Shown here piece by piece: positions 1,561 to 64,000 of a DNA stretch of 64,000 nucleotides. A program made the translations under genes and the position numbers. Position 1 is the stretch's first letter, and each line of letters opens with the position of its first letter. The notes under the pieces are model-generated. The model was not told where the DNA came from, did no database searches, and was given only the letters and a program-made list of their open reading frames with translations. The stretch comes from Beroe forskalii (Eukaryota > Ctenophora > Nuda > Beroida > Beroidae), in the NCBI GenBank assembly GCA_011033025.1, contig WFMF01000436.1, positions 1 to 64,000 of the forward strand, in the 5' to 3' direction.

Positions 1561-2040
1561 CAGCTGTCGTTCTAAAGCTCATGTTTTCCCACTATCTTAG
1601 CTGGCGTCCCAAAACTCATGGCTTCAGCCTCTGTCCTGAGATGCTGTCCTAATTTTCTAAAACTCACCACTTCAGCTCTGCCGTCCTAAATCCCACTTTT
1701 TCAGCTGCTGTCCCAATACCCACTTTTTCAGCCGCCGTCCTGAAGCCGAGGCAGATGGTGATTGTACACGGGACGCCCTTAGCTCGCAGCTGTCGTTCTA
1801 AAACTCATGTCTTCCCACTATCTTAGCGTTAGGTGGCGTCCCAAAAATCATGACTTCAGCCTCTGCCGTGAGATGCTGTCCTTTCTAAAACCCAGCACTT
1901 CACCTCTGCCGTCCAAAAACCTACTATTTCAGCTGCTATTCTATTTTCCTAAAACCCTCTATTTCAACTGCCGTCCTAATACCCTCTATTTTAGCCGCCG
2001 TCCTGAAGCCGAGGCAGATGGTGATTGTGCACGGGACGCC
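1561..2040 (+). repeat. Tandem duplication of a CPSF2 intron end and exon start
   Basis: Copy A (1561-1777) and copy B (1787-2040) share the same order of phrases. Both begin CAGCTGTCGTTCTAAA, carry several short CTGCCGTCC-like sub-repeats, and end with the first codons of the CPSF2 exon, up to GGGACGCC. Copy A stops after about 23 coding bases past the ATG-like codon and runs into the start of copy B. Copy A has a good-looking 3' splice site (TTTTTCAG), but its frame soon reaches a stop, so it would act as a decoy acceptor, not a working exon. The copies differ by many substitutions and small indels, so the duplication is not recent. Confidence 0.8.
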
Positions 2041-27000: not shown

Positions 27001-30000
27001 ACACTGACTGATTAATGATCATTTTCACTGCCTTGAAGAGTTGATGAATTGGAATTTGACCTGCTAAATATACCATGGTGATGTCATAATTACATCATCA
27101 ACTCGTGGAGATCATCATACAGAACCAAAATAAATAGCTGTTCGAGGAAATGTATAAATCAACATTTTAAGCCATGTCAATGATTTCACTTCCAGCCAAC
27201 AGTATTTTTAATTTTTCATGCGAGAAGCAAAACCTATGATAATCGAGGCGTTATCATTGGCACATGGTCATTTCAAATTACTCGTCATATATACAAATTA
27301 AGAAAGGTGTATCCGAATTACATATTATGCTCAAATATATGTGCATAATTCAAACATATGATAGTGTTCAGGAGTTTTAAGGTTTCAGTCTTAATTCCAC
27401 GTTTACACGGTATGTCATTAATTACCATTGGAGTGTATCGGGGAATCATTACGGAGAGTGATGAGGTATACCTTGTCATTGCACCAAAATACGCTGGAAA
27501 TTAGAGCATATTTTGAATATCTTATTTTCTACGACGAATGACTTCAAAATTCCACCATTTTGATACCCATCAGAAATCAATTTATCTCTGTGCTTGAATC
27601 AGTCGGCATTAATAAAGAAGAGCAATGATACCGATTGTCACTGCACGTTTGATAAAGGAGCACTACTCAAGTCAGGGAGTCGTTGGTGAGCTACACAAGT
27701 TGTATACCACCCATCATATATCAGATTAAAGTTTGTATTAATGTGCATAATAATGATATCATTAAGACTTTATGAACTTCACACCCGTACAGTTTTATTA
27801 TCATAGGACCATACACGAATACACTCAGGCTTCAATGACCCCACCAATCCAACATAATGCAGTTTAGTTCAGAATACACTCACATTTTGATCAAGATTTG
27901 TTCTATCGCAAAAACGCCCAGAAACCAATAAGTATTAAGTAATCAATTATCTATGGCACCGTTAAGTAAAATTAGAAAACTTCGTAAAAATGGAATTAAA
28001 AGTTGGATGCATCACAAACACTAGTGATAGGATGAGAATTGTTCTCTTACCCCTGCGACGGCTTGTCCACAGTTGACACACTTCTCTCCGAACTTGTCAA
28101 AGTAACACGGTCCACAGAACAGCTCCTCCTCCACCTCCTTGAACCCCTGCAAATTAAGGTTGGTAAATATTCTACATTCGTTGTCAGCTTGATTTCAAGT
28201 GTTTATCGCTCGCTAAATCTTCAACATTCGGTTCCGGTCATTTCGGGCTGCGCGCCTTCGACAATAATTTAGCGATTAACCACCTCAATCAATAATGAAA
28301 TTTAGAAATATGCGATAGCATAGGGCTTGGTGAATGACAATGCTGTCCGGATGTATTCAACCGAATATTTGAAAGACAATATTATATTGGTACCAACTCA
28401 ATGCACATAATTACAAATTACAACTTTGTGACATCTATGTGACAAGTCATGAATTCTATACATCTCAGTGCCTTTCAAGAAAACCACAGTACATTTTTGT
28501 TGCATGACAATTGACAATTGGCAGGTGGTCACCCAATGTGACATAAAAATAGATAACCAGTGCCACTGAGATGAATAATTACATGCCATATTATGCTCTG
28601 GGAATTTCAAGGAAATTTTCTTATTGGATCTTTGAATAACAACTTGATTTTGGTTTAATGTGAAATTATTTGGAAGCTCCGAACCTATCAGCTTTTCCCG
28701 GACTTTCTAATATTCATCATGTTTACAATCAAAGAATCAAGCGATGCAGCATGGGAAATTATGAGAAAGTAATCTGAAATTAAGCATCTGAGAGCAATTG
28801 GGAGAAAGTAATCTAACATTCAGTATCTGATGAAAACAGTGTAGCAGTTGGTACGTAGCAGTTGGTACATCTTTGAAAATAAAAGTAAAATTCATAATTT
28901 ATATTCTAAATGATCATTTGAGATAAGGAATTATCTATTTTACACCTTTTTCTACACTGTATACCCTTTCAATGCTCGATCAATGCTTTGAACATGACTA
29001 CATTATCATCAACGATATTGTGTCATCTGCAATAAATAAAACGTTTTTTTCCTGAGCACCCCAGAACCGCAGCAATGAGAGCGTTATTGAGAATATTAAC
29101 CGCGGCTATGAGTGACGAGAATGTTATTTAGAAGTATTTGTGATTATTGAATATTGATTCCTGTGATTCTTCACCGAAAGGAACGCAAAAGGTAATCTGT
29201 TTTGACAGGAGGCCGCGAAATTGGAAAAATCGCCCGTTTTCAAATGCCCAAAAAGATGATGGTTAGTAAAATTATTACACAGCCTGAATCGTGTGAATAG
29301 TTTTTGAAAATAATAAAATTAACTTTTATACTACTTTTATAATAGGCATTGTCTGCAAGGTTGTTACTTGAGTGGAGATGGTGCATAATTTCATCCAACA
29401 AGATTCAACAGAGATTTAACAGAAATTCATTTAAGATCATTGCTATTCTTAGATTATGTAAGCCCCTAAGCCCCGAAGTCGCATAATATGCTATAATTAA
29501 CATAGACGACTAAAACCTGTGAAATTTTACTAAATTATGCATATTTTAATCATGATTTGATACTTAATGAGCATGAGAAAAATGTTCCATCAAAGATCCG
29601 TGGAATTCATGCTTCAACCGGTGGCCCCGTAATTCGATGAAAATGAGAATTAAAGTTGGAATTCATAGTATGACTGAAATTTTAATGCATTAACATAACA
29701 TATTTTGTTCAATATGGTGAAGCGCAATGATGGATATTTTAGCAGAAATAGAGAAGTTGGTCGGCACAAGAATGAAATGTCAGGTATGGTAACTACTGCT
29801 GAAATTACACAAGGTACCTTGTGTACAAGGTACCTACCCTGTGTACAAGGTACCTATCTTGTGAACAAGGTACCTCCCTTGTGTACAAGGTACCTATCTT
29901 GTGTACAAGGTACCTATCTTGTGTACAAGGTACCTACCTTGTGTACCTTTATCATTTATACCAACACATGGGAAGTGACATGGTGTCGGGGATTTATTTG

Positions 30001-46733: not shown

Positions 46734-47369
46734 CTTAAACGTAGCAACAAGTATTATCATAAAAATCTTGCGAAGTGGTTAGGCATCAATAACGTAACTT
46801 CTTCCCATTTCTTAGCTTGTAATAGTAAGGGATGTCTAACCTGCAAGTCTTTTGTCACTAGTAAAACCTTTCATAGTAGTACGTTTAATAATAAGTTTAT
46901 ATTCTGTCATGATAGTCTTAATATTTCCTGCAAAAATAGCAATGTTATCTATCTTATTACCTGTTCCACTTGTCAAAAACAGTACGTTGGTGAGACCAGT
47001 CAGCCACTTCACAAGCGTATGAATGGTCACAGATCAGGTGTGAAGAATAATGCCTCCACATTTATCTATGAGCATTTTAACCTTCCCGGTCATTGCTTCT
47101 GTGAAGCAACTATCCAGATCATTGATTACGTCGATAAGGAAATTTCAACCGACGTGAAGAATGACCTGTGTAGTTTGGAGGACTACTGGATTGACAAGTT
47201 GGGTACAGCATATCCCTTAGGCCTTAATGATAAAAAGAAGGGATATGGCAGTATATCGCAAGGTATTACTGTCAACTATTTTAATGGTTTCATAAAACGT
47301 TATAAACGTGGCAGAGGCAGTAAGAGAGCCTCTTGTAAGAGTAGGAGTAAAAGAAGAGGTTGCAGATAA
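46734..47369 (+). pseudogene. GIY-YIG endonuclease part of the Penelope-like element
   Basis: The frame opens after a TGA at 46731 and stops at 47367. A cysteine pair (CLTC) is followed by FHSSTF, then VIYLITCSTCQKQYVGET, which supplies the GIY and YIG strands with an embedded CxxC. Further on come HKRMNGHRS (catalytic arginine region) and LEDYWIDKLG (catalytic glutamate region). The tail is rich in Lys and Arg. There is no ATG near the beginning of the open frame, and the frame is lost in the basic tail, so a functional product is unlikely. Confidence 0.8.
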
Positions 47370-49516
47370 TCTCGTTCTTTTCAAAGAGTCTATTACTAAT
47401 TTTGATCATTCCTTATTTAAAACTCTGAGATCATATTCCTTAACAGATTTAGACACCTTATTTAATTTGGCTAGTATTAATTCTGGAATTTTGTACAATA
47501 TGTGTAATTCATTTTGTAGGACATTCTCACCGAAATTCAAAGTGAATGAGGCTGAGAAGATAAAGGAACGTGAACATCTAGTTATTTCATTCAATAGTAA
47601 ATTTATGGATAATTTAAAATTTCAATCCATTTTCTCAGATAAATCTGTCGTCCAGCTCCTTCCTCCTTCTCTACAAGAGAAGTCTCCTCTCACAGCGTTT
47701 ACTATCGATATAGTAAACCTCTTAGTTTATCCGTTTGTAATTACAGCAAATTTCTTAAAAATCTTACCATTCCTGATGTTCGAGCAATTCTAAATTCTCA
47801 ATGTAACTGTAATTTATCATCTTATAATTATGAGCCACTAGGGCATATTGTTACTGGTGACTTGAGTATTGCCGATGATCCAGATTTAAGAAATATTTTA
47901 TCTTTCGGTAGTAAATTTAGAATTCCTTGTCATCAGTCTGTATCAGAGATTAAAGCTAGTATTGACGATGATTTGACAAGCTTTATCAAGAGCAAAAGTA
48001 AGAAGTACCACTTGAAGAACGCTGCTTTTGATTCTTGGTATAGCAGAGTGTCGGATATCGTTAATAATAGACTTAAATTTCATGAAGACAACCATCCACA
48101 TGTCTTTGAACAAACTGAAGACAATGTCCTTGAGAGAGAATGTGTCAAGGAATAACTGAAACGTCTTCAGAAGTTTTATATCATTTGTAGTATTGATAAA
48201 GCATCTAACAACTTCGCTTTTATCTGCAAGAAGTTCTATGTAATAACTCTTCTCAAAGAGCTTGGTTTTGACACTGATACACTAGAATGTACGGGTAACA
48301 AAACCTACTCTCCTCTCCCAAACGACCCTGACTTCTATGTCGAACAAATCGCCTCGACACTACGAGACAAGTACTCCACCACCATCGACGACCAAAACAT
48401 GTGTCTACCACGGCTGTTCTGGAATCCTAAACTCCACAAGAACCCATACAAAGCACGCTTCATAGCTGGGGCGAGAAGCTGTGCTACTAAACAGCTGAAC
48501 ATCCTTGTTAATTGTAGTCTTAAACTCCTGCGAGAATACTTCAAGAAGTATTGTCAGACAATATACAATAACAGTGGTGTCAATGTGTTCTGGAGCATAG
48601 ATTCTTCTGCACAGTTTCTTGAGTCACTGCAGGGCAGTGAAGTATTTAATCTCCAAATATATGACTTTACTACTTTATATACCAATTTAGACCTTAAAGA
48701 AGTTGATGATATGATTGGAGAAGTTATAGATCTTATCTTTTCGGAAAGAAACAAGTATATCAATATTTGTAAATACGATACAAATAAGTGTTTCTTCGCA
48801 AAGAAGATCTATGACGGCTACCATAGCTTTGATAGAGATCAGCTCAAAGAAGCAGTACACTTTATCATCTATCACACCTATATAGTTTTCGCAGGTAAAG
48901 TTTTTATCCAAGTCTTAGGAATCCCCATGGGTGGAAATTCCAGTTCCCCCATCGCGGATCTCACTCTCGCTAAACGAGAGTTTAACTTCATGCTTAATCT
49001 TTTAAAATCTAAAAAGTTCTCCCTAGCTAAGATTCTTTCCAAAACACGACGCTACGTCGATGATCTCATTACCACTAATTATCTCAACTTTGAAGCTCTC
49101 ATCAAACAAATCTATCATCCTTCTCTTGAAATGGAGAGGTCAGGTAATGACAACAAGAACGTGAATTACCTGGACCTCAACATTTCTATCCAACCAGGCA
49201 AAGTGATCGTGTCTGTATATAACAAAACCGATGACTTTAATTTCTCTGTAGTTTCCTTAACATTTCCACAGAGTAATATCCCTCTAGAAGTAGGCCATAA
49301 CGTATTCTACAGTCAAATCCTTAGGTATGCTAACATTTGTACTGAATTTGAAACTTTCCTTTTCAATCTTAAAAAAGTTTTCCAAAACTGATTGAAAGAG
49401 GATATAATAACTCCAATCTTGTAGACATTATTAAACGTTGCCTTAATAAGAATAGCTTAGTTTTCAAAAAATATGCAATTTTAGATAACAGTACAATTTT
49501 AGATCAATTTGTTTAG
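47370..49516 (+). pseudogene. Reverse transcriptase part of the Penelope-like element
   Basis: The N-terminal part runs in one frame to about 47760, then in another through a block containing GPLGH-like EPLGHIVTGDLSI, up to a stop at 48153. The same frame continues with the reverse transcriptase core: FWNPKLHKNPYKARF, motif A YDFTTLYTNL, motif B GIPMGGNSSSPI, motif C YVDD within RRYVDDLITT, and YLDLNIS. The end of the protein continues in another frame after 49388. The polymerase aspartates (DFTT and YVDD) are intact, but the frame breaks make this copy non-autonomous. Confidence 0.85.
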
Positions 49517-51045
49517 GTATTGGCACGCGAGGTTCTTCACATTCTGTACTGGTTAGTTATGCAGCTTGTTGCTGACCTCAAATAACTTGCTGTATGATTA
49601 GCCTAGGACTGAATGTGGGGCTGGACAGGCAGATGCCTGCAACCTCCCTTTATTTCAACGTTCAAATTCAGGTTTTAATAGCTTTATATTAAGATATTCC
49701 ACACGATTATAGCAATCATTGATCTTTCACCTCTACTGAACTCTTTCTTTTTTCTACCCCTTCCCTCTAAACTGTGTTGCTCAGGAATCCGGAGTCCTGG
49801 GTGGCCCAGCCTTGCAGTTGTAAGCTGTGAGGGTACGTGGGCCGAAACCCCTCCGTTTCCCTTTGTCACCTGCTGATGGTACACCTACATCGCAGATGGC
49901 AGGGAGACCTTACAACTGTAGGGTAACCGCTGATGATTCACAGTTTAGTCTCTTCCGCCTCTCATGTCAATCCTTGAATTAGAAAATCGATATGCAGTAT
50001 TTTGTTATGTTTGTAGTTTACCCATACACCTCTATAGATAAGACATTGGATTCCTACCTCAAATTTGAATGTAATTAGTAGTGTTGTTAAGTTTAAAACT
50101 CACAATATTGCAAATTAAAAACATTAAATTCAATATATTAAAAGTGTCATAAACAACCAATTTATTTGAACCATAAAGAAATCTTTCTTCAAGACATCAA
50201 TCTGCAAGAACAACCAATGTTGGGAGCTATGGTCTATGTTGTCAGATGTTGTCTTTGTCATTATTTTAAGGAGGTCAAAAACATCTGACAAGGTCTATGG
50301 TTAAGTATAGTTGCAAATGTGATGAATTCCTGATGGCAGGATTCCTTTTACTTAAAGATGAAAACATGAATTTGTTTCAAACTGAAATGAAACAACCCAA
50401 ACAATTGCGTATGATTGTCTGATGCCCACTTTCACATATGTGTGCAGACCACTCAATTGAAAAAGGCATCGATAAAGATGCATGAAATTTTGTGCTTTTG
50501 ACGGAATTACATGGAAAGTTGAAGTGCACAGACTTTATCGAGGCCTCTGTCAATCAAGGGATCTGCACACATATGCGTTTCAGTTTCCAAATACAGATAG
50601 GACCTGCTGTCATGTTAAGTGGACTGGATAGACTGATTGAGTGATTGAGACTTGACTTAATAGCTTAGGATGTTTTTATGAATTTTTATGAACTAATTTT
50701 TATGAACTAAATTTAATCTAATCAACCTAGAATTAACAAACTAAGATCACATTACATAAACATACATAATGCATGAGAGTTTAGACAATATTACCAAATA
50801 ATTCATCTCACAGATGCAGAGCAGAGCTGCAGTAAAATAAAATGAACTGGTGAAAGCTTGATTTACTGAATCTGAATTAAGATAAACTATTTATTAAATC
50901 ATCAAAAGATTCTGCGACATATACGAAAAATTGAAAAAAAAATCTTCAGTAAGGTTTTCTTTAGCATTCATGCCTAGCCTTTTTTCAAAAATTTCCGAGG
51001 AGCAGAGATTTAAATTTACTAGCTTTGCTGAACACATATCCCTGT
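49517..51045. other. 3' flank of the retroelement and AT-rich DNA
   Basis: I see no gene. The first 430 bases are more GC-balanced and may be the 3' untranslated part of the retroelement. The rest is AT-rich and featureless to my eye. Confidence 0.4.
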
Positions 51046-51190
51046 CTGCATTGCGCGGCACGCTTCCTCAGAACAGGGAAGCTTCCTAAGCCCGCAAAGG
51101 TGTGTGTATGCGCGCGGCGCTTCCCTACGGGAGGAAGCGCGCCGCGTGCAACGCAAACAGGGATGCAATGTACGTGTTTAGCAATGCAAC
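51046..51190. repeat. CpG-rich module with hairpin
   Basis: A GC-rich island in AT-rich DNA contains GCGCGGCGCTTCCC facing GGGAGGAAGCGCGCCGC, an imperfect inverted repeat around CTAC. Similar words (CTTCCTAAGC, GCGCTTCCCTA, AGGGATA) recur at 61890-61960, so this is a dispersed sequence family and not a promoter island of an identified gene. Confidence 0.6.
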
Positions 51191-51419
51191 AGGGACACTA
51201 GGCCAGTTTTGCGCGGGGCGGCACTAGGGATATTTTACGATGCGCGTCAATTTGAAAAGTGCCCTCTCTTTAGTGACATCTTAGGCAAACTTAATATTGT
51301 TTGGGATACTTGAAGTGCGGTTATTCTAGTTCAGCAATGTCTGCAGATTGTCACAATGTGAGCCATTTTCCAAAACACCAAAATTTTGTATGGTTTCTGG
51401 GTCACCAAACTAGGACAAC

Positions 51420-51774
51420 TTGCCGTGTCTGTAACTTTTTCCCCCACCTATCAGACTTTCACTCCCTTCCCTTTTAGACACTTGCCAACAACATCCAATT
51501 GATCATACAGTGCGGAAAAGCGCGGAACATCGTCAAATCGGCCGTCAAAGATTGGCGGTCGTAAATAAAACGACGCGATTTTCGACGTGTTTCACGCGTG
51601 CAAGTCACGTCGGTTTCCGATAAACCACAAATCTTTGACGGCCGATTTGAACAAATTCCGCGCTTTTCCGCAGAATAAACTTGATTTGGTACTGTTGGCA
51701 AGAGTCTTAAAGGGAAGAAGGTGAAGGTCTGATAGGTGGGGGATTTTGGGGGGAAAAGTTACAGACACGGCAAA
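51420..51774. repeat. 355 bp foldback element, no coding capacity
   Basis: The left arm (about 51420-51565) and right arm (about 51625-51774) are inverted copies with indels. Shared landmarks are TTGCCGTGTCTGTAACTTTT at the outside, CACCTATCAGAC, CTTGCCAACA, GCGGAAAAGCGCGGAA and CAAATCGGCCGTCAAAGATT at the inside. It is probably a MITE; a target-site duplication is not obvious. Confidence 0.8.
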
Positions 51775-52509
51775 TCTCAAAATATAAGCTCAAATTTTCG
51801 TCATAACGCAGCTAAGATTAACACGAAGAAAGAGAATATATGTACATAATCATATTTCAAGGCACAAAGGATAATTGGAAACCATAAACCGAACAAAAAC
51901 TTTAAATTACTGCATTCTTAAGTAATGAGCTGCAAAATATGGGTATTTACTCTGAATAATACTCTAAAATCATTCTACTGAAGTACTGAAAATTGAAAGG
52001 AGCATTCAGCATACTAAAGTACTCAAAATTTGCTCAAAAAGTATCCCGAAAAGCTGTATAAATAGGAAGCTGGAATGATCACATTCATTAGCTTCATTCT
52101 TCAAGTTCAAACTCAAAACAATAATTCATTGTGACTATTTCTATCTGTACCTATTTGATAGTGATACCCTTTCGAAGAGATGCTTTCGTTTCACACTGAT
52201 CACTGCATGAGTACTGCACCTGGTTCATCATCACAGTCCTGAGGCACGAGTAGGGTTCCATGAAGAAGATCTCAGTAGTCATGGGTTAATTTGAGAAGTT
52301 CAAGGAACCAATTTATCCCCATCTCCCTACCTGAGATAAACGTTTTTAAGATCAATCGAGGAATCCGAAACAGTACAATACGCGCGCCGAGAAATGCGGC
52401 GCGCGAAGAGTTTATAATTGCTCGCGAAAAATGCTTTTCTTGATTGAAAGCTCATTTGGGAAGACCCTTTTGAAAATATATTGCCAAATTGTGACAAAGA
52501 TGCCACAAA

Positions 52510-52564
52510 AGTGATTGGAAAGTGATTGGAATGTGATTGGAAAGTGATTGGAAAGTGATTGGAA
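52510..52564. repeat. Five-copy 11 bp repeat (AAAGTGATTGG)
   Basis: The phrase AAGTGATTGGA recurs five times in tandem with single-base changes. Confidence 0.9.
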
Positions 52565-52810
52565 TATAATTTGGATAGCAATTGATGGGTTTTAGTTGTG
52601 CGCTATTTGTTCAGCGCCTTTAAAACTTGAAATTCAAAGCGAATGCGATGGAACAATACTAGCTAAGGGGTGAAGGGGAGAAGTGTAGGTTGTAAGGAGT
52701 GATAACATTAACCTCAAAAGACACTCACATGATCATTAGCAATTCCATTTATAGGAGTGGAAGAGGTTTTAGCCAACAGCCGTTCTTGGATGAATCGCTG
52801 CCGTTACTAA

Positions 52811-53698
52811 CACAGTGCATTCTGATAAGATTGGGAATTAGACGATACAAACACATGGTGCATTCTGATAAGATTGGGAATTATACAATACAAACACAGT
52901 GCATTCTGATAAGAGGGGGAATTATACAATACAAACACAGTGCATTCTGATAAGAGGGGAATTAGACGATACAAACACAGTGCATTCTGATGAGAGGGGG
53001 GAATAGACGATACAAACACAGTGCATTCTGATGTGAGGGGGAATAAGACGATACAAACACTGTGCATTCTGATATGAGGGGGAATTAGACGATACAAACA
53101 CAATACATTCTGATGAGAGGGGGAATTAGACAATACAAACACAGTGCATTCTGATGAGAGGGGGAATTAGACGATACAAACACAGTGCATTCTGATGTGT
53201 CATGAGAGGGGGAATTAGACAATACAAACACTGTGCATTCTGATATGAGGGGGAATTAGACGATACAAACACAATACATTCTGATGAGAGGGGGAATTAG
53301 ACAATACAAACACAGTACATTCTGATGAGAGGGGGAATTAGACGATACAAACACAGTGCATTCGGATGTGTCATGAGAGGGGGAATTAGACGATACAAAC
53401 ACAGTGCATTCTGATGTGTCATGAGAGGGGGAATTAGACGATACAAACACAGTACCTTCTGATGAGAGGGGGAATTAGACGATCAACACAGTGCATTCTG
53501 ATGGGAGGGGGAATTAGACGATACAAACACAGTACATTCTGATGAGAGGGGGAATTAGACGATGCAAACACAGTACATTCTGATGAGAGGGGGAATTAGA
53601 CGATACAAACACAGTACATTCTGATGTGTCATGAGAGGGGGAATTAGACGATACTGACACAGTACATTCTGATATGAGGGGGAATTAGACGATACAAG
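52811..53698. repeat. Minisatellite, 41-42 bp unit, about 21 copies
   Basis: Each unit contains CACAGTGCATTCTGATGAGA then GGGGGAATTAGACGATACAA. Some units carry an extra TGTCATGAG insert, giving 47-48 bp variants. The apparent - strand peptides (CLYRLIPPSHQN repeats) follow from the repeat and are not a gene. The array is interrupted at 53699 by the element listed next, and a single matching unit start (CCTTCTGATGAGAGGG) reappears on its far side at 58390. Confidence 0.92.
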
Positions 53699-53704
53699 TA
53701 GGTA

Positions 53705-53827
53705 GGGGGGGAGGTAAGGCAAACTTTGGCAAACTATGGCAAACTTTGGCAAACACTTTATTTGGCAAACTCCAAAAAAAGTGGAAGCATTTGCCAAAGT
53801 TTGCCAAAGTTTGCCAAAAATGAAACA
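53705..53827. repeat. Left end module, TTGGCAAAC quasi-palindrome
   Basis: The module has direct copies of TTTGGCAAAC on its left half and inverted copies (GTTTGCCAAA) on its right half, separated by CTCCAAAAAAAGTGGAAG. It can fold into a stem by itself. Confidence 0.85.
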
Positions 53828-54185
53828 CATTTTAGAGCACTTTGGCAACACTTTAGGTACCCATAATATGCTTTTCAAGGATGCTGAATCGATTCCCAAG
53901 GTCTGTTTCACATTTTGACGTCACCCAGAAGCTGTAGCAGAGACTACATCCACATTGGATAGAGTAGGAGGCTACAGTAACAAATACGATATTTCATTAC
54001 TTCTTACTTTAAGTTTTTTGCATTTAAGTAGTTCGATCAACGGATCAAACCAAACCAAAGCATCCACTCTACATAAGTCTGTTCCAGCAGCCTAAAATCA
54101 ATGGTAAGGCCCCGCCGGCCACTGTGACCACTGACCAGTTTCCATGGATTCCTGCAATATAACCCGACATAACGGTGTTGAGAAT

Positions 54186-57100
54186 GCTAATTGCCTAGTG
54201 AAGGCTGAGAGGAGCCTAGTGGAGGCTGTGTGACGCCTAGTGGAGGCTATTGGTGCCTAGTGGAGGCTGAATGGAGCCTAGTGGAGGCTGAGTGGAGACT
54301 AGTCGAGGCTGAGTGGTGCCTAGTGGAGACTGTGTGACGCCTAGTGGAGGCTATTGGTGCCAAGTGGAGGCTGAATGGAGCCAAGTAGAGGCTGAGTGGA
54401 AACTAGTCGAGGCTGTGTGACGCCTAGTGGAGGCTGAATGGAGCCTAGTGGAGGCTGAGTGGAGACTAGTCGAGGCTGAGTGGTGCCTAGTGGAGGCTAT
54501 TGGTGCCTAGTGGAGGCTGAATGGAGCCAAGTAGAGGCTGAGTGGAAACTAGTCGAGGCTGTGTGACGCCTAGTGGAGGCTGAATGGAGCCTAGTGGAGG
54601 CTGAGTGGAGACTAGTCGAGGCTGAGTGGTGCCTAGTGGAGGTTGTGTGACGCCTAGTGGAGGCTATTGGTGCCTAGTGGAGGCAGAATGGAGCCTAGTG
54701 GGGGCTGAGTGGAGACTAGTCGAGGCTGAGTGGTGCCTAGTCGAGGCTGAGTGGTGTCTAGTGAAGGCCGAATGGAGCCTAGTGGAGGCTGAGTGAAGCC
54801 TAATGGAGGCTGTGGAGCCTAATGGAGGCTGTGGAGCCTAATGGAGGCTGTGGAGCCTAATGGAGGCTGAGTGGAGCCTAGTGGTCAGTGGAGACTGAGT
54901 GGAGTCTAATGAATGCTGTGTGGAGCCTAGTGGAGCCTTAGTGGAGCCTATTGGTCACTGGTCAGTGGAGACTGAGTGGAGTCTAATGAATGTTGTGTGG
55001 AGCCTAGTAGAGGCTGAGAGAAGCCTAGTGGAGGCTGAGTGGTGCCTAGTGGTCCACTAGGCACAACCCAGCCTCCGTTAGGCTCCGCTCAGCCTCCACT
55101 AGGCCCCATACACCCTCCACTAGTAGTGGAGGGTGTAATGTGTATGGAGCCTGGTGGAGGCTGAGTGGAGGCTGAATGGAGCTTAGTGGGGGCTGGGTGG
55201 AGCCTAGTGAAAGCTGATTAGAGACTAATGGAGGCTGTGTGGAGCCTAGTGGAGGCTACTTGGAGCCCAGTGGAGGCTACTTGGAGCCTAGTGGATGCTA
55301 AATGGAGCCCGGTGGAGGCTGGGTGGAGCCTAATGGAGGCTAAGTGGAGCCTAGTGGAGACTGAGTGGAGCCTAATGGAGGCTGAATGGAGCCTAGTGCA
55401 GGTTGAATGGAGACTAGTGGAGGCTAAGTAGAGGTTGAGTGGAGCCTAGTGGATGTTGAGTGGAGCCTAGTGGAGGCTGAGTAGTGAGTGGAGGCTGAAT
55501 GGAGCTTAGTGGAGGCTAAATGGAGCCTAGTGGGGGCTGGGTGGAGCCTAGTGGAGGCTGAGTGGAGACTAATGGAGGCTGTGTGGAGCCTAGTGGAGGC
55601 TGAGTGGAGACTAATGGAGGCTGTGTGGAGCCTAGTGGAGGCTGAGTGGAGGCTGAATGGAGCTTAGTGGAGGCTTAATGGAGCCTAGTGGGGCTGGGTG
55701 GAGCCTAGTGGAGGCTGAGTGGAGACTAGTCGAGGCTGAGTGGTGCCTAGTGGAGGTTGTGTGACGCCTAGTGGAGGCTATTGGTGCCTAGTGGAGGCTA
55801 TTGGTGCCTAGTGGAGGCAGAATGGAGCCTAGTGGGGGCTGAGTGTAGACTAGTCGAGGCTGAGTGGTGCCTAGTCGAGGCTGAGTGGTGCTAGTGAAGG
55901 CCGAGTGGAGCCTAGTGGAGGCTGAGTGGAGCCTAATGGAGGCTGTGGAGCCTAAGATAGGCTGAGTTGAGCCTAGTGGTCAGTGGAGACTGAGTGGAGT
56001 CTAATGAATGCTGTGTGGAGCCTAGTGGAGGCTGAGTGGAGCCTAGTAGAGGCTGAGTGGAGTCTATTGGTCAGTGGAGACTGAGTGGAGTCTAATGAAT
56101 GTTGTGTGGAGCCTAGTAGAGGCTGAGAGAAGCCTAGTGGAGGCTGAGTGGAGGCTGAATGGAGCCTAGTGGAGGCTAAGTGGAGCCTAGTGGAGACTGA
56201 GTGGAGCCTAATGGAGGCTGAATGGAGCCTAGTGGAGGTTGAATGGAGACTAGTGGAGGCTAAGTAGAGGTTGAGTGGAGCCTAGTGGATGCTAAATGGA
56301 GCCCGGTGGAGGCTGGGTGGAGCCTAATGGAGGCTGAGTGGAGCCTAGTAGAGGCTGAGTGGAGCCTATTGGTCAGTGGAGACTGAGTGGAGTCTAATGA
56401 ATGTTGTGTGGAGCCTAGTAGAGGCTGAGAGAAGCCTAGTGGAGGCTGAGTGGAGGCTGAATGGAGCCTAGTGGAGGCTAAGTGGAGCCTAGTGGAGACT
56501 GAGTGGAGCCTAATGGAGGCTGAATGGAGCCTAGTGGAGGTTGAATGGAGACTAGTGGAGGCTGAGTAGAGGTTGAGTGGAGCCTAGTGGATGTTGAGTG
56601 GAGCCTAGTGGAGGCTGAGTAGTGAGTGGAGGCTGAATGGAGCTTAGTGGAGGCTAAATGGAGCCTAGTGGGGGCTGGGTGGAGCCTAGTGGAGGCTGAG
56701 TGGAGACTAATGGAGGCTGTGTGGAGCCTAGTGGGGGCTGAGTGGAGACTAGTCGAGGCTGAGTGGTGCCTAGTCGAGGCTGAGTGGTGTCTAGTGAAGG
56801 CCGAATGGAGCCTAGTGGAGGCTGAGTGAAGCCTAATGGAGGCTGTGGAGCCTAATGGAGGCTGTGGAGCCTAATGGAGGCTGTGGAGCCTAATAGAGGC
56901 TGAGTGGAGCCTAGTGGTCAGTGGAGACTGAGTGGAGTCTAATGAATGCTGTGTGGAGCCTAGTGGAGGCTTAGTGGAGGCTGAATGGAGCCTAGTAGAG
57001 GCTGAGTGGAGCCTATTGGTCAGTGGAGACTGAGTGGAGTCTAATGAATGTTGTGTGGAGCCTAGTAGAGGCTGAGAGAAGCCTAGTGGAGGCTGAGTGG

Positions 57101-57855
57101 TGCCTAGTGGTCCACTAGGCACAACCAGCCTCCGTTAAACTCAGCCTCCACTACTACACCCTCCACTAGTAGTGGAGGGTGTAATGTGTATGGAGCCTGG
57201 TGGAGGCTGAGTGGAGGCTGAATGGAGTTTAGTGGAGGCTTAATGGAGCCTACTGGGGGCTGGGTGGAGCCTAGTGAAAGCTGAGTAGAGACTAATGGAG
57301 GCTGTGTGGAGCCTAGTGGAGGCTACTTGGAGCCCAGTGGAGGCTGGGTGGAGCTTAATGGAGGCTAAGTGGAGCCTAGTGGAGACTGAGTGGAGCCTAA
57401 TGGAGGCTAAATGGAGCCTAGTGGAGGTTGAATGGAGACTAGTGGAGGCTGAGTAGAGGTTGAGTGGAGCCTAGTGGATGTTGAGTGGAGCCTAGTGGAG
57501 GCTGTGTGGAGCCTAGCACAGGCTGAGTGGAGGCTGAATGGAGCTTAGTGGAGGCTAAATGGAGCCTAGTGGGGGCTGGGTGGAGCCTAGTGGAGGCTGA
57601 GTGGAGACTAATGGAGGCTGTGTGGAGCCTAGTGGAGGCTACTTGGAGCCTAGTGGATGCTGAATGGAGCCCAGTGGAGGCTGGGTGGAGCCTAATGGAG
57701 GCTACGTGGAGCCTAGTGGAGACTGAATGGAGCCTAATGGAGGCTGAGTGGGGCCTAGTGGAGGTTGAATGGAGACTAGTGGAGGCTGTGTGGAGCCTAG
57801 TGGAGGCTGGGTGGAGCCTGAGTGGTGCCTAGTGGAGGCTAGTTGGAGCTGTCTG
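54186..57855. repeat. 21 bp satellite (CCTAGTGGAGGCTGAGTGGAG), about 170 units
   Basis: The unit is the 21-mer CCTAGTGGAGGCTGAGTGGAG with frequent changes at a few positions (for example GTG to AATG, CTGAG to CTGTG). Because 21 is a multiple of three, long frames appear with the heptad EAEWSLV; they have no start or stop logic and are satellite shadows. A higher-order repeat of about 2058 bp is visible: inverted blocks begin at 55042 and 57100 with GTGCCTAGTGG facing CCACTAGGCAC and continue to a second palindrome, ACACCCTCCACTA facing TAGTGGAGGGTGT. Within these blocks the satellite runs in the opposite orientation. Confidence 0.92.
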
Positions 57856-58261
57856 AAAGTTTGAATCTATAAATTGTTTTTTAGTGCACATTTAACAGGT
57901 TTCAGCAATAAATTTTGTATCATGAAGGCTAATTGATTCAGGCTCCACTCAGCCTCCATATAGCCTCCACTAGCCTCCATATTACAGCTTTAGCCTCCAT
58001 GCCTGGAAATTATAAAAATCTCTTTTCTTGAACCCGAAGGTTCTCGAAATTTTCGTACCCTGGTCCTTTAGGATAACTTTTTGTAAACAATGGGGTGCTA
58101 GTAGAGGGAAGGTCTAGGCGTGGACACCAGTATAGCCTCGAAAGGGAAGGTATGAATGAAAATTAAGCATCGGAAATCGATTCAGCTCCCTCAATAACGA
58201 TTATGTAAACGTCCTGCATGCACAGTGGACAAGAAATCAGAGAGAACAAAATTTTCGGGGT

Positions 58262-58379
58262 ATTTTTGGCAAACTTTGGCAAATTTTGGCAAACTTTGGC
58301 AAACTATGGCAAACACTTTTTTTGGCAAACTCCAAAAAAAGTGGAAGCGTTTGCCAAAGTTTGCCTTACCCCCCCCCCC
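58262..58379. repeat. Right end module, TTGGCAAAC quasi-palindrome
   Basis: It shares its core with the left module in the same orientation (ACACTTTTTTTGGCAAACTC against ACACTTTATTTGGCAAACTC), while its outermost 25 bases match the left end as an inverted repeat. The C run at its end is about 10 bases long. Confidence 0.85.
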
Positions 58380-58869
58380 TAGGTACTAACCTTCTGATGA
58401 GAGGGTGAGCATTGGAGTCGGGAGAAAGCCACTGAACTCAAGGGTGAAAGTTCCAAATTTGATATATGTTCAGGGAGACGTTGATTGTCTTTTAGCAGAA
58501 GTGTGGAGTTTAATATGAATGGACTAGGTAGAATCAGATTACAGAGCGGACTAGCAACCTGAAGATGAGTTTTCAAGTTAGTTAAGAAGATAAGGAGAGC
58601 TGGTGAACTCTATTGCTTTGTGATTTAGTAAAAATTGTTCCTATGTGATTCCTATCTAGATGTGATTCTTCTAAGCTTCTATAGACATAAACAGTACCTT
58701 TGTTCAGCGAAGTAGCTCCGTGAATAGAGGAGTATAGGTATCCCAGGCCCAGGGTCCTGCACACTTTCCAAGCATCAAGGAGTCAGTCACAGAGTGCACC
58801 CGGGGATGAAGGAGTACATCCCAGGATAGACATGAGTGTATCCCATGATCGAGGAATCTCTTGCAGGAA

Positions 58870-61275
58870 AATAGAGTCTTCCCTAAGACCAAGGAAACTC
58901 TCTCAGCATCAAGGAAACTCTCCCAAGATCAAGGAGACTCTCTCAGGATCAAAGAGACTCTCAGGATCAAGGAGACTCTCTCAGGATCAGAGTCTTCCCA
59001 AGGATCATTGAGTCTTCCCTAGGATCAGGGAGTCTCTCTCAGGATCAAGGAGACTCTCTCAGGATCAAGGAGACTCTCTCAGGATCAAGGAGACTCTCTC
59101 AGGATCAAGTTAGCCCTCCCAGGATCAAGAAGTCTCTCTCAGGATCAAGGAGACTCTTTCTGGATCATAGAGACTCTGTCAGGATCAAGGAGACTCTCTC
59201 AGGCCAGGATCATTGAGTCTTCTCTAGGAGATCAGTGAGACTCTCTCAGGATCATTGAGTCTTCCCTCTTTCAAGGAGACTCTCTCAGGATCAGGGAGAC
59301 TATCCCAAGATCAGGGAGGCTCTCCCAAGGTCAAGGGGACTCTCTCAGGATCTTTGGGTCTTCTCTAGGAGTAGGATCAGGGAGACTCTCTCAGGATCCG
59401 AGAAAGGAGACTCTCCCAAGGTGAAGGAAACTCTCTCAGGATCAAAGAGACTCTCAGGATCAAGGAGACTCTCTCAGGATCAGAGTCTTCCCAAGGATCA
59501 TTGAGTCTTCCCTAGGATCAGGGAGTCTCTCTCAGGATCAAGGAGACTCTCTCAGGATCAAGGAGACTCTCTCAGGATCAAGGAGACTCTCCCAAGGTGA
59601 AGGAGACTCTCTCAGGATCAAGGAGACTCTCTCAGGATCATTGAGTCTTCCCTAAGATCAGGGAGACTCTCTCAGGATCAGAGTCTTCCCAAGGATCAGG
59701 GTCCTGAGAGAGTCTCCTTGGATCAAGGAGAGTCTCTTTTTGATTCTGAGGTCTTTTTGTCTGAGAGAATACTTCAGGACCTTGGGAGAGTCTCCCTGAA
59801 TCAGGGGGACTCTCCCAAGGTGAAGGAGACTCTCTCAGGATCAAAAAGACTCTCTCAGGATCAAAGAGACTCTCAGGATCAAGGAGACTCTCTCAGGATC
59901 AAGGAGACTCTCTCAGGATCAAGGAGACTCTCTCAGGATCAGGGAGACTATCCCAAGATCAGGGAGACTCTCCCAATAACAAGGGGACTCTCTCAGGATC
60001 AAGGAAGCAAGGAGACCCTCTCAGAATCAAGGACATGTTTTGCAGGATCAAGGATCTTTTCCTAAGATCTTGTCCTAGGATCAAGGAATGTACCCTGTGA
60101 TGAAGGAGAGCAGCCTGGATGAAGAGTCTGTCCCAAGACAGAGCCTTTACCAGGTTCAAGGATTCTTTTCCAGTATCAAGAAGTGCATCTCATAAATGAG
60201 AGTATCCCAATATCAAGGAGACTATCCAAGGCTAGGATCAAGGAGACTCTTCTAGGATGAAGAATACAATTCAGGAACAAGGAATCAGTCCTAGGGTGAA
60301 AGAGTCTTTCAGGTAAAGGAGTCTTTCAGATGAAGGAGTCTTTCCCAGGATCAAGGAGTCTTTCCCAGGATCAAGGAGTCTTTCCCAGGATCAAGGAGTC
60401 TTTCCCAGGATCAAGGAGTCTTTCCCAGGATCATGGAGTCTTTCCCAGGATCAAGGAGTCTTTCCCAGGATCAAGGAGTCTTTCCCAGGATCAAGGAGTC
60501 TTTCCCAGGATCAAGGAGTCTTTCCCAGGATCAAGGAGTCTTTCCCAGGATCAAGGAGTCTTTCCCAGGATCATGGAGTCTTTCCCAGGATCAAGGAGTC
60601 TTTCCCAGGATCATGGAGTCTTTCCCAGGATCAAGGAGACTCTCTCAGGATCAAGGAGTCTCTCTCAGGATCATGGAGTCTTTCCCAGGATCAAGGAGTC
60701 TCTCCCAGGATCATGGAGTCTTTCCCAGGATCAAGGAGACTCTCTCAGGATCATGGAGTCTTTCCCAGGATCAAGGAGTCTTTCCCAGGATCATGGAGTC
60801 TTTCCCAGGATCAAGGAGACTGTCTCAGGATCATGGAGTCTTTCCCAGGATCAAGGAGTCTTTCCCAGGATCAAGGAGTCTTTCCCAGGATCAAGGAGTC
60901 TTTCCCAGGATTAAGGAGTCTTTCTCAGGATCAAGGAGTCTTTCCCAGGAACAAGGAGTCTTTCCCAGGATCAAGGAGTCTTTCCCAGGATCAAGGAGTC
61001 TTTCCCAGGATCAAGGAGTCTTTCCCAGGATCAAGGAGTCTTTCCCAGGATCAAGGAGTCTTTCCAGGATCACGGAGTCTTTCCCAGGATCAAGGAGTCT
61101 TTCCCAGGACCAAGGAGTCTTTCCCAGGATCAAGGAGTCTTTCCCAGGATCATGGAGTCTTTCCCGTGTCAAGGAGTCTTTCCCAGGATCAAGGAGTCTT
61201 TCCCAGGATCAAGGAGTCTTTCCCAGGATCATAGAGTCTATCCCAGGATCAAGGAAACTCTCCCATCATCAATAA
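58870..61275. repeat. 20 bp satellite (AGGATCAAGGAGTCTTTCCC), about 110 units
   Basis: Two subtypes exist: AGGATCAAGGAGACTCTCTC dominates to about 60050 with many variants, and AGGATCAAGGAGTCTTTCCC is nearly perfect from 60330 to 61250. A short inverted stretch lies at about 59701-59800. Because 20 is not a multiple of three, every frame cycles through the same 20-residue peptide (SFPGSRSLSQDQGVFPRIKE) and stays open; this explains the long overlapping open frames. I regard them as satellite shadows, not genes. The 3' half is far more homogeneous than the 5' half, which suggests recent expansion there. Confidence 0.92.
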
Positions 61276-61619
61276 AATGAGTGTATCCCAAGGACTATCC
61301 TAAGTCAAGGTATGTTGGTAAGTTAGAGCACAACACAACAATTAAGAAATAACCAAACACATGCAGACAGCAGAATATTCTAACTGACCAAACTTGAATA
61401 ATCTTTGGCAGATCAGCAAATAAACTTGGAAATTCATTGTGTATATACACCAATTTGCAATATTAATATTTGCAGAAAAATAGCAGTCTTTAAAATTAAA
61501 ACAAAATCGCCAAAAATATAATGGCATAGTAACTATTTGAACCATAGAGAACATAAGAACTTATTCTACATATTGTGAAAAATTTAAATATTTTGAAAAT
61601 TTTTACAATTTTCGCTGCA
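61276..61619. other. AT-rich spacer
   Basis: No gene or repeat was recognised between the satellite and the CpG-rich block. Confidence 0.5.
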
Positions 61620-62060
61620 TATTGCAATGATGGACGTGAGAGTGCGCGGCGCGGCGCTATTGGAATTTGAATCACGAATGTCGCGTCAAATTCTCACTTG
61701 TACGGCGCGCGCGACCGCCGAATTTGCGCGCACCCAGTGCCGGGGTGCCTATAGTGAGGGAAGCGCACGGCGCGTAGGCACTTCTTTTAACCAGTGGCGA
61801 AACCAGGCGCTAGTTAGGACAATTCAACGTAGACATGCACTTATGCGGGCTTAGGAACTACTGGCTAGTCAAACATTTGCATTAGAATTCCCCTTCCTAA
61901 GCGCCGCGCGCGCTTCCCTAGGGAAACGCGCACGCGCGCGAGCTAAAGAGGGATATACGTAATTAGCAAGAATTCCCCTGACCAGGGGCGCCGCGCACTC
62001 CATCCGCAAAACCGGCAGTGTCCTGGGCAACAAAACGCGTATTCCGCGCCGCGCACTCCG
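61620..62060. repeat. CpG-rich block related to 51046-51190
   Basis: The block contains several CG-dense words (GCGCGGCGCGGCGC, GGCGCGCGCGACCG, CCGCGCCGCGCAC) separated by AT-rich bases. An open frame at 61627-61854 has an Arg/Ala-rich composition dictated by the CpGs. It could be the unmethylated promoter island of ARMH3, since it lies 1.3-1.7 kb before that gene's first recognised exon, but its similarity to the 51 kb block favours a repeat. Confidence 0.5.
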
Positions 62061-63358
62061 AGCGGGTAACCAGGTTCTTGGTAATGAAGTTAGAAAATAA
62101 AAAAAATAAAATATCGTATGTTGAAGAACCTCTTCTTAAATCTTAGATAGAAATGATCTTATTTTAAAATTATCCAATTGCTGTTCTTTCTTTTGAATTT
62201 CAAATATATTTTCTTTTGTTTTAACAATATATTTATTTGCAGTTAAAAGGTTGTAAACAGTCCAATATTTTTTAAGTCTTGAGAGTTCCAAACCAACCAA
62301 TTATATGTCAGGTTGATTAATGATTATCAAACCAAGTGCAATAATTGGCCAACAACACAAAATTATTAAAATCTTAGGCTTACCTGGGGCAGTATTAAAA
62401 GCACCTATTTCATACTCGTAACTTATTATCAAACATTTTTCACTGAGTTGATTTTACATATTCAGTTTATTTATTAATGCTTTCATTGAGTAACAGGCAC
62501 CTGAGTTAGATGGTGTGTTTTAGTGTTATCTATTTTTCTTGATTATTGTCTATGTGAAAAGTGATGGTTAAATACCATTATCCTTATTATCCTTATTATA
62601 TGTTATGTTATGTTATGTTATTTACAAAATAACATAAACTTGACACTTTCAGTTCAGGGGACATAATGATTCCTAAGCCCACACATGTCTGTGTATCGAT
62701 GATAAACCCTTCCAAGTGGTGTGCTATAACTCCACTTATGGGGCTCAAAAATATTTCAACAACTGTGTCAAAATGCCTGATTATTCCTTGAAATATTCTG
62801 AATTTTTCAATAATTTTGCTATCAAAGCCTTGAAATAATTCGCACACTTTTTGTTACTTACTCCAAACCTAACCCAAGTCACAGAGGTTTAATTTTGTAT
62901 AACAGAGGGTATAAATGCAACTTTACGTCGTAGTACTAATGGGTGTCTCAGTGCCCAACCATGGTGAACTCAGTGTAGATCCTTGCTGTGCTGGCATGTT
63001 TAACAAGGAATTGAAGCTGAGGGGCTCTGTACAGGACATAGCTATTAAGTATATATGTGATTATACAGATAAGATTTAGTTTAAATCTGGTATAATTGAG
63101 TGAACTGCAAGTCATTCAAAAAATCTCACCCAATAGATTTGATGATTGATGTCAATGCAAAGACCACCATTCAAGTCTAAATTCAGCATCATATATGAGT
63201 CTATATTAAAGGTAAATTCATGTTCTGATCACTGTTATTCATACTTCAGTATTTTTGATTGCTATTATTACTACTACTGTAGTTGATTTCGATTGCTATA
63301 ATCAATCATTATTTGTCAGTATAGAATGACAACTTTGGGGTTTCATAAATTATTTCAG
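62061..63358. other. AT-rich DNA upstream of ARMH3 exons
   Basis: The first coding exon of ARMH3 should be in this direction, but I could not find it. A (TTATG)n simple repeat lies at about 62598-62622. Confidence 0.4.
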
Positions 63359-63747
63359 GGGAAGAGCAAGATGATGCAGTCTGGGAAGAGCTTTTTCTCA
63401 TAAAAGTTAATGTAAAAGTTTTGGAGGATCTTTTCAGTGAACTGTCTTCAAATGATCTAATACATCTCAAAGTAAGCTGTTGAAAACTTTCAGTCAGAGA
63501 AAAAAAAAATATTATATTTTCTTTCAAAGGTGCCAGTTTTTCTTAAATTAAACACAAAAATCAACCTTAACCAGTTTCAATAGTAGCCTCAATATGATGA
63601 TAGTATCATTTGACTAATCTTATGTTAGTTTTGTGTGATTGAATCTACCATATAACCCCCTTTCAGGGATCCATCAATACTCTTTTTAGAAAATGTGTGG
63701 AAAGCCTGAAAGAAGAGCACAGCATCAAATCCCTCAATATTCTGATG
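63359..63747 (+). CDS. ARMH3: ARMH3 (C10orf76) homolog, two N-terminal exons
   Basis: Exons 63359-63471 and 63667-63747 have GT-AG borders and join in phase 0. They encode WEELFLIKVNVKVLE then NDLIHLKGSINTLF and SLKEEHSIKSLNILM, which line up closely with the conserved start of armadillo-like helical domain-containing protein 3 (vertebrate WEELFLMKVN, then GEEHPIRVVNALQ). ARMH3 is a Golgi-associated protein that binds GBF1 and PI4KB in vertebrates. The 5' exon and most of the protein are outside the window; the first visible exon starts with two bases that complete an upstream codon. Confidence 0.88.
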
Positions 63748-64000
63748 GTTAGTTTAGAGTATCCACTGTTTTAAATTAACTAGCAGAACCCATGGCCTCC
63801 GGCCATCGTTCACAATTTTTTCGCTTCAACAATTGGTACAGTATAATGCAGTACTGTAGTTCTTATCAGTGATGAGGTCATATTTTAATCGGGTGTGCCT
63901 ACTCCTCTATGTGATGTCTATATGTCAGGTGGTGTCAAACGTCACTGGTACGCCCGTAGAAATAGAAATAGAAATAGAAATATCAAATACAGTCTTATTA
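63748..64000. other. ARMH3 intron, truncated by the window
   Basis: It starts with the donor GTTAGT. No further exon is visible. An (AAATAG)n simple repeat lies near 63957-63983. Confidence 0.6.

Follow-up and report, generated by a model that had tools for sequence, protein, structure and literature searches.

A 21-bp satellite array in a probable nested two-layer DNA transposon copy of the ctenophore Beroe forskalii

Introduction

The way in which satellite DNA spreads through genomes is not settled. A 64,000-nucleotide stretch of Beroe forskalii DNA (the window; contig WFMF01000436.1, positions 1 to 64,000) raises it in concrete form: what kind of element holds a whole 21-bp satellite array between inverted ends, and where did the array come from? 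One satellite is traceable here through two families of transposons that differ in their ends and in duplication length, and a single genome holds the vehicle, the likely source of its enzyme and near-identical copies of unequal array length.

Structure of the insertion

The TAGGTA words on both sides, the G- and C-run caps, the inverted TAAGGCAAAC ends and the 21-bp array that the first-pass annotation described at 53699-58385 are exact to the base (Table 1). In the window copy, TAAGGCAAACTTTGGC begins at 53715, directly after the G-run cap, and its complement ends at 58368. The end modules are, as that annotation had read them, quasi-palindromes, with cores (ACTTT..TTGGCAAACTCCAAAAAAAGTGGAAGC) in direct orientation to each other.

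The same reading had placed the element inside a minisatellite. When the flanks are joined with one TAGGTA, the alignment to the 41-bp minisatellite continues 23 bases past the junction and includes a 17-bp unit block with one mismatch (score 29, against a best of 24 in 500 shuffles). The flanks do rejoin; because the alignment extends only 23 bases, the insertion lies at the last unit of the array and not in its middle. No convincing inverted pair that would bound a larger element enclosing the neighbouring arrays was found within 50001-64000, and no RNA family was found in the window.

Table 1. Features of the window copy and its insertion site
Feature	Coordinates	Strand	Basis or remark
41-bp minisatellite; its last unit is the insertion site	52805..53697	+	array detection and junction alignment
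Left target-site duplication TAGGTA (6 bp)	53699..53704	.	read directly; 6 bp is also the most frequent length in the family (15/41 copies)
Left G-run cap GGGGGGGAGG	53705..53714	+	read directly and compared across 41 copies
Left end module: TAAGGCAAAC(TTTGGCAAAC)n, asymmetric core, inverted (GTTTGCCAAA)n	53715..53819	+	common to the C407 coding copy
Left unique region	53823..54192	+	matches, at least in part, 38 of the other 40 copies
21-bp satellite array (GCCTAGTGGAGGCTGAGTGGA), including short inverted stretches	54193..57848	+	length as assembled
Remnant inner sequence of the GGCAAAATGG foldback family, adjoining the array	57831..58000	-	sequence comparison
Right unique region of the carrier element	58001..58264	+	matched across copies
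Right end module, inverted outer end GCCAAAGTTTGCCTTA	58265..58368	-	read directly
Right C-run cap	58369..58379	-	read directly and compared across 41 copies
Right target-site duplication TAGGTA	58380..58385	.	read directly

A multicopy non-autonomous family

In the 216-Mb genome the 16-base end has 175 forward and 174 reverse matches; the reversed control has 0 and 0. Among the first 100 end sites of the matches listed, adjacent pairs at most 12 kb apart comprise 34 convergent, 1 divergent and 0 same-strand pairs, where chance would give about 1.9 adjacent pairs in all orientations together; 32 of these 100 ends have no exact partner inside 12 kb. Forty-one paired copies were picked by exact 16-base ends, a choice that under-samples decayed copies.

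Flanking repeats of at least 5 bp accompany 36 of the 41 copies (44 of 1522 mismatched-flank control pairs), and repeats of at least 6 bp accompany 34 (9 of 1522). The commonest length is 6 bp; longer matches may reflect chance extension. The duplication was not recognised in five copies (L023, L028, L032, L034 and L041). Target words vary between copies. The joined flanks lie inside a tandem repeat in 5 of the 36, and at two loci (L022, L046) keeping one duplication copy restores a 40-bp unit. The left cap is G-rich in 39/41 copies (missing in L028 and L034, imperfect in L032) and the right cap C-rich in 40/41 (missing in L032). Copies measure 2.4-7.3 kb, above usual MITEs, with end modules of about 100-140 bp.

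Multiple copies, inverted ends and a target-site duplication of fixed length place the family among the Class II terminal-inverted-repeat (TIR) DNA transposons. None of the frames of at least 130 residues in the 41 paired copies resembled a transposase; apart from those in L019, L031 and L041, they were taken, on inspection by eye, for read-through of array or flank. The 311-residue frame of L041 was tried as a transposase and set aside: it has no Pfam transposase match, and its best match, just at the cut-off (21.0 bits), was taken as chance. The earlier proposal of a non-autonomous mobile element carrying the satellite is borne out by copy number, paired ends, duplications and the array itself, as is its expectation of inverted outer pairs with direct repeats of the 6-bp type. 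A multicopy non-autonomous element with a 21-bp satellite inside it therefore offers a route for satellite spread.

A coding relative and candidate transposase

One complete coding partner has the same ends. This C407 copy, named for its contig, is 10.2 kb long (C407:677-10842 between exact ends), is flanked by the duplication TATATA and has caps and end modules as in the window-type family; its outer 183 bp (85-88%) and 124-137 bp (93%) are common to the three satellite-type copies tested. Besides it, one truncated relative was seen. The C407 gene has a 944-aa reading frame spanning one GT-AG intron. Its product is a candidate DDE transposase, with putative catalytic motifs (D, D-xx-H, E) read by eye only.

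The candidate gave no significant match in Pfam (best E 0.0048, short of the curated cut-off; joined protein 0.015), and its 528-residue exon gave no match in PDB up to E 1. The C407 frames scanned matched no integrase family, and the three longest matched neither the DNA polymerase B nor the integrase genes of Polinton/Maverick. No relatives of the protein were confirmed in viral contigs and none were found in phages; the 20-base end pattern of the element was not found in viral contigs.

A second transposon family and nesting

The 21-bp satellite also lies in the centre of foldbacks that form a second family and have GGCAAAATGG ends. Their 8-bp duplication is exact in 11 of 12 cases, and the twelfth pair matches at 7 of 8 bases (control 0/132). 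As expected of a foldback, the inverted arms are long and take up most of the element: two of the three complete copies show a long single arm alignment (L052, arms 731-1488 / 1909-2647, 76% identity; L054, arms 490-1338 / 1816-2664, 79%), and the third, L053, shows short pieces only. An 8-bp duplication together with a matching transposase would mark a hAT or P element; the comparison of this family with them covers the duplication length.

The foldback right end is found internally in 34 of the 41 window-type copies, the window copy having lost it; the left end, sought with the same tolerance, is found in 0/41. At 5/5 loci the foldback inner sequence resembles the window remnant beside the array (scores 119-181 against shuffle maxima of 25-30), and the similarity is satellite-like in part, the remainder not. 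The similarity of the left unique region to the foldback family is not above shuffled controls. Two families, each with its own duplications, are present, one nested in the other. Sequence comparison indicates that a truncated foldback copy inside the window-type element brought the satellite in.

The first 100 of 1562 exact satellite matches form 20 clusters, in a tally made from listed coordinates. Window-type elements account for 7 of them and a foldback end accompanies 12; the last, L057, is a foldback body without recognised ends, 92% identical to L052 across 1922 bp. These figures bear on a different account with two independent acquisitions, in which a free-standing genomic array went straight into the carrier and the satellite reached the foldback family by a separate event. 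The available text of the miDNA4 report proposes that a MITE took up a tandem repeat that already existed (PMC12628747), which serves as precedent. Direct capture is nevertheless improbable here: foldback terminal sequence lies inside most carrier copies, the partly non-satellite sequence adjoining the array is common to the foldback at every locus compared, and none of the 20 clusters is a free-standing array.

Proposed history

From the window-type ends, the array, the nested foldback end and the C407 copy, we conclude with high confidence that the segment is a nested two-layer copy of a satellite-carrying DNA transposon, probably moved by a C407-type element. The segment would be one copy of a non-autonomous TIR family with 6-bp duplications, moved in trans, by presumed cross-mobilisation, by the transposase of the element of roughly 10 kb that shares its end modules. 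In what we infer to be the order of events, the family ancestor would have received an insertion of the second, unrelated transposon (the foldback with 8-bp duplications and central satellite), the outer left part of the insert would have been lost, and the composite would then have been copied to about two hundred places, its array growing or shrinking locally, lineage by lineage. A relay of this kind, in which one family picks up the satellite of another, is testable.

Comparison with known systems

The first-pass annotation had called the window element foldback-type. Classical FB or Galileo elements have long repeat-rich arms, and the window-type element, which ends in modules of about 100-140 bp, is therefore not one of them; the true foldback is the GGCAAAATGG family, which that annotation had not seen. 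Tetris of Drosophila virilis, as far as the available text of its report goes, is a foldback, seemingly a non-autonomous TIR element, whose internal tandem repeats are connected with satellite arrays; its ends are common to another element, both being thought to use the same autonomous element, and three structurally complete copies are reported (PMC4079207). The window-type family resembles it as a non-autonomous TIR element with tandem repeats inside and ends shared with another element. Tetris, however, has repeats of about 220 bp in its arms and 8-10 bp duplications, whereas the window-type copies have a central 21-bp array and 6 bp. Long TIRs with tandem repeats, as in FB, Galileo and Tetris, were not found in them. 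A classical foldback with rearranged repeat-rich ends would fit the inverted, internally repetitive ends and the repeat-rich body, yet it is scarcely likely, given the short end modules, the difference in duplication length and an array that is central, mainly in one orientation and outside the arms.

The non-coding window-type copies also resemble the Xenopus MITEs miDNA4 and Xstir, which carry a satellite within the MITE, with variable monomer number in miDNA4 (PMC12628747, PMC9659126); array copy number likewise varies here. Unlike this family, miDNA4 is a Tc1/mariner MITE (PMC12628747), and the available descriptions of the two include no transposon end with satellite nested in a second transposon family, as found here. 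The arrangement had been put forward as new. The claim narrows because satellites inside MITEs and foldbacks are already in print, in the parts of those reports at hand (PMC4079207, PMC12628747, PMC9659126). What is new is the nested two-family relay, together with a transposase without family placement. TTTGGCAAACTTTGGCAAAC was not found in the literature searched.

Kolobok elements target TTAA. KolobokP, in the available text, shares with the window-type family directly repeated end modules, each with its own short inverted ends, but its terminal direct repeats measure about 450 or 660 bp, against about 100-140 bp here (PMC9587614). Target-site duplications of 6 bp, as here, are given for IS3EU / GingerRoot and Polinton, and the IS3EU termini are TA..TA (PMC10045372, available portion). 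In the window-type family TA..TA lies just inside the caps; the duplications lie outside them, and the termini are therefore G-run..C-run, which sets IS3EU aside. Dada, described in the accessible part of its report as lacking TIRs and inserting in small RNA genes (PMC3706591), was likewise rejected: TIRs are present, target words vary between copies and the window contains no RNA family.

More tentatively, and with doubt prevailing, the C407 element might found an undescribed superfamily, marked by 6-bp duplications, homopolymer G/C termini, quasi-palindromic direct-orientation end modules and an unplaced transposase. Its non-autonomous derivatives might then be a general relay, picking up satellite-bearing elements from other families and dispersing the arrays, so that much of the 20-21-bp satellite DNA in this genome would be transposon-borne.

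Inheritance and length change of the array

The 21-bp array is present in 39 of the 41 window-type copies, in majority forward orientation in 39/39. These are the window copy and the 38 of the other 40 whose left and right unique regions match it at least in part. Two copies (L024, L033) hold other arrays, in line with the early suggestion that some would carry other cargo. The array is inherited with the element; it forms the body of most copies and is no fresh capture. That the apparent insertion was created by tandem-repeat misassembly has a negligible probability: 1-4 kb arrays are difficult to assemble, but a collapsed array could alter length and would not create the locus-specific duplications with which the boundaries recur at 36/41 loci.

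Array length changes between near-identical copies, possibly by slippage or unequal exchange, and the rate of change per transposition is directly measurable here. Four copies at four different target sites have ends 98-99% identical, with 2280 (L010), 1063 (L011), 1571 (L012) and 1157 (L018) array-like bases; their array 30-mers are shared most among these four.

Structure and insertion site of the window copy

The inserted element described in the first-pass annotation is confirmed and matches that description exactly, with TAGGTA on both sides, G-run and C-run caps and inverted outer ends TAAGGCAAACTTTGGC. Direct reading also bears out that the end modules are quasi-palindromes whose cores are directly oriented. 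Removal of the element rejoins the minisatellite, as had been proposed: the flanks, joined with one TAGGTA, align to the 41-bp minisatellite, and the alignment continues 23 bases beyond the junction, including a 17-bp block (score 29 against 24 for the best of 500 shuffles). The insertion point is the last unit of this minisatellite.

Features of the window and of related loci
Feature	Position	Observation
Window copy	window 53699-58385	Inserted element
21-bp array	window 54193-57848	Inside the window copy
GIY-YIG frame	window 46734-47369	PF01541, E 3.5e-07
Reverse transcriptase-like frame	window 48156-49391	Resemblance by eye, no Pfam match; downstream of the GIY-YIG frame
20-bp array	window 58841-61265	TCCCAGGATCAAGGAGTCTC; near the element, open in several frames
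20-bp unit	window 29815-29946	TACCTTGTGTACAAGGTACC; nearly self-complementary, 6.6 copies
L024, window-type copy		TAAGGC ends, array AGGAGTGTGATAGGCTTACTT
L033, window-type copy		TAAGGC ends, array TCATAACCCACCCCTTTCCAC
L024-type array	C163:439457-442699	Dense run, among the matches listed
Extra insert in L014, window-type copy	element positions about 643-4120	TTGGTTTTTTTGG-type inverted ends, 28-bp array

The window-type family

Exact matches to the 16-base end of the element number 175 forward and 174 reverse across the 216-Mb genome, where its reversed control has none. Among the first 100 end matches listed, adjacent pairs within 12 kb comprise 34 convergent, one divergent and no same-strand pairs, against a chance expectation of about 1.9, and the convergent pairs span 2.4-7.3 kb. 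The genome search suggested earlier thus returns many inverted pairs, and 36 of the 41 copies read (40 convergent pairs plus the window copy, all selected for exact ends) carry flanking direct repeats. These are matching words of at least 5 bp adjoining the caps (5 bp, n=2; 6 bp, n=15; 7 bp, n=13; 8 bp, n=4; 9 bp, n=2); mismatched flank pairs, used as a control, reach 5 bp in 44/1522. Words longer than 6 bp may have been extended by chance or reflect an ambiguous boundary next to the G/C runs, and the basic duplication length is taken as 6 bp. Among the 41 copies, L023 and L041 have no matching word, and none was scored in L028 and L034 (without left cap) or L032 (without right cap). The target is a tandem repeat in 5 of the 36 joined flanks, and in L022 and L046 a single duplication copy restores a 40-bp unit. 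The right junction of L013 has a C-run of 34; unbroken runs measure 0-13 in other copies, some broken by one other base. Because run lengths vary between copies, the terminal homopolymers may slip.

The 21-bp satellite is the body of most window-type copies. The left and right unique regions of the window copy recur in 38 of the 40 other copies (72-96% identity over matched parts, some partial), and all 38 contain the array, as does the window copy. Its majority orientation is forward in 39/39, with L035, L036 and L037 the most mixed (68-74% forward). Other cargo between identical ends, also anticipated, occurs in L024 and L033, which hold different arrays of about 20 bp; that of L024 is common elsewhere in the genome (599 + 385 exact 24-mers). 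Four close copies (L010, L011, L012 and L018) have ends 98-99% identical and four different target words, with 2280, 1063, 1571 and 1157 array-like bases, respectively. In such close groups, array 30-mers find their best match in a fellow member; distant copies such as L013 and L014 have just 1-6% in common with any other copy. Since close groups share array 30-mers and differ in length, the arrays move together with the element, and their length changes rapidly.

A second family and the probable origin of the satellite

Exact 24-base satellite matches number 851 + 711 in the genome, and some clusters lie away from window-type elements. Five such loci (L052-L056) belong to a second, foldback family of about 2 kb, with ends GGCAAAATGGTACCACAGGAA and the array oppositely oriented in its two halves. 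Among the three copies with both ends, the inverted arms form one long alignment (76-79%) in L052 and L054, and short pieces only in L053; L055 and L056 have one end in the stretch read. Its 8-bp duplication is exact in 11 of 12 copies checked and matches at 7/8 bases in the twelfth (control 0/132). Of 20 satellite clusters among the first 100 satellite matches listed, 7 lie in window-type elements, 12 are accompanied by a foldback end, and the remaining one, L057, is the body of a foldback lacking recognised ends (92% identity to L052 across 1922 bp).

The 21-base end of this family has 132 + 161 exact matches, some inside window-type elements. Its right end is found inside 34/41 window-type copies, at 408-470 bp from the right end of the carrier, with L022 (589) and L043 (1512) as the exceptions; at equal tolerance, its left end is found in 0/41. 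The right end is absent from the window copy, L028, L038, L039 and L048, and also from L024 and L033. The second-family inner sequence resembles window 57831-58000 at 5/5 loci (scores 119-181 against shuffle maxima of 25-30); in the same comparison the left unique region of the window copy shows no similarity. One transposon's terminal sequence inside another implies that the first inserted into the second, and the uniform position and orientation suggest a single ancestral event. An ancestor of the window-type family would have received a second-family insertion once, and the left part of the insert would then have been lost. The earlier reading of a mobile element spreading a satellite stands; its foldback label does not, nor does its view of the array's origin, the array having probably come via the second-family insert.

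The extra insert in L014 is possibly a third satellite-bearing family.

A coding copy as candidate mover

A copy on contig C407 has an exact end pair 10.2 kb apart, with matching caps and TATATA as its duplication. Its end modules can be aligned with the modules of other copies. Against the three satellite-type copies tested, its outermost sequence matches over 183 bp at the left end (85-88%) and over 124-137 bp at the right end (93%). Scanned for tandem repeats, C407:600-10500 shows no 21-bp array. On the minus strand, frames of 528 and 439 residues are joined by a 436-bp GT-AG intron into an uninterrupted frame that, counted from its first Met, is 944 residues long; by eye, an upstream exon of 191 residues may be part of the gene. 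Motifs recognised by eye are a Cys/His finger near the start, SIDETAV, GDGTT, QDMLHVVKKLRNN (a D-xx-H motif) and NEQAHAFVR. The D-xx-H motif is a feature of the P/hAT/Kolobok/Dada group. No Pfam family passes its cut-off in the protein frames, and a PDB search with the longer exon gives nothing up to E 1. The candidate protein probably moves the satellite-bearing copies; on the boldest reading, it may represent a new transposase superfamily. Next to this copy lies a second, truncated relative that has a right end (pieces of 99%, 75% and 80% identity); the 99% piece may instead be a repeat of its own.

Comparison with known systems

In the foldback Tetris, repeats of the arms were the source of a satellite (PMC4079207), and miDNA4 and Xstir are MITEs with internal satellites (two reviews, PMC12628747 and PMC9659126), as far as the available parts of these sources describe them; satellite dispersal inside a TIR element is therefore a known kind of mechanism. 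The accessible portions of the literature on satellite-bearing transposons yielded no case in which nesting lets one satellite be traced through two families while a coding partner is also available. By the parts of the descriptions available, IS3EU (PMC10045372) shares 6-bp duplications but has TA..TA at its termini, whereas window-type elements have it only inside the caps, and this identity was rejected. Dada (PMC3706591), as partially described, lacks TIRs and targets RNA genes; it does not fit and was likewise rejected.

Other features of the window

A search for inverted pairs around the 20-bp array near the element gave no convincing one. The GIY-YIG and reverse transcriptase-like frames probably form a Penelope-like element (window 46734-49391), endonuclease first.
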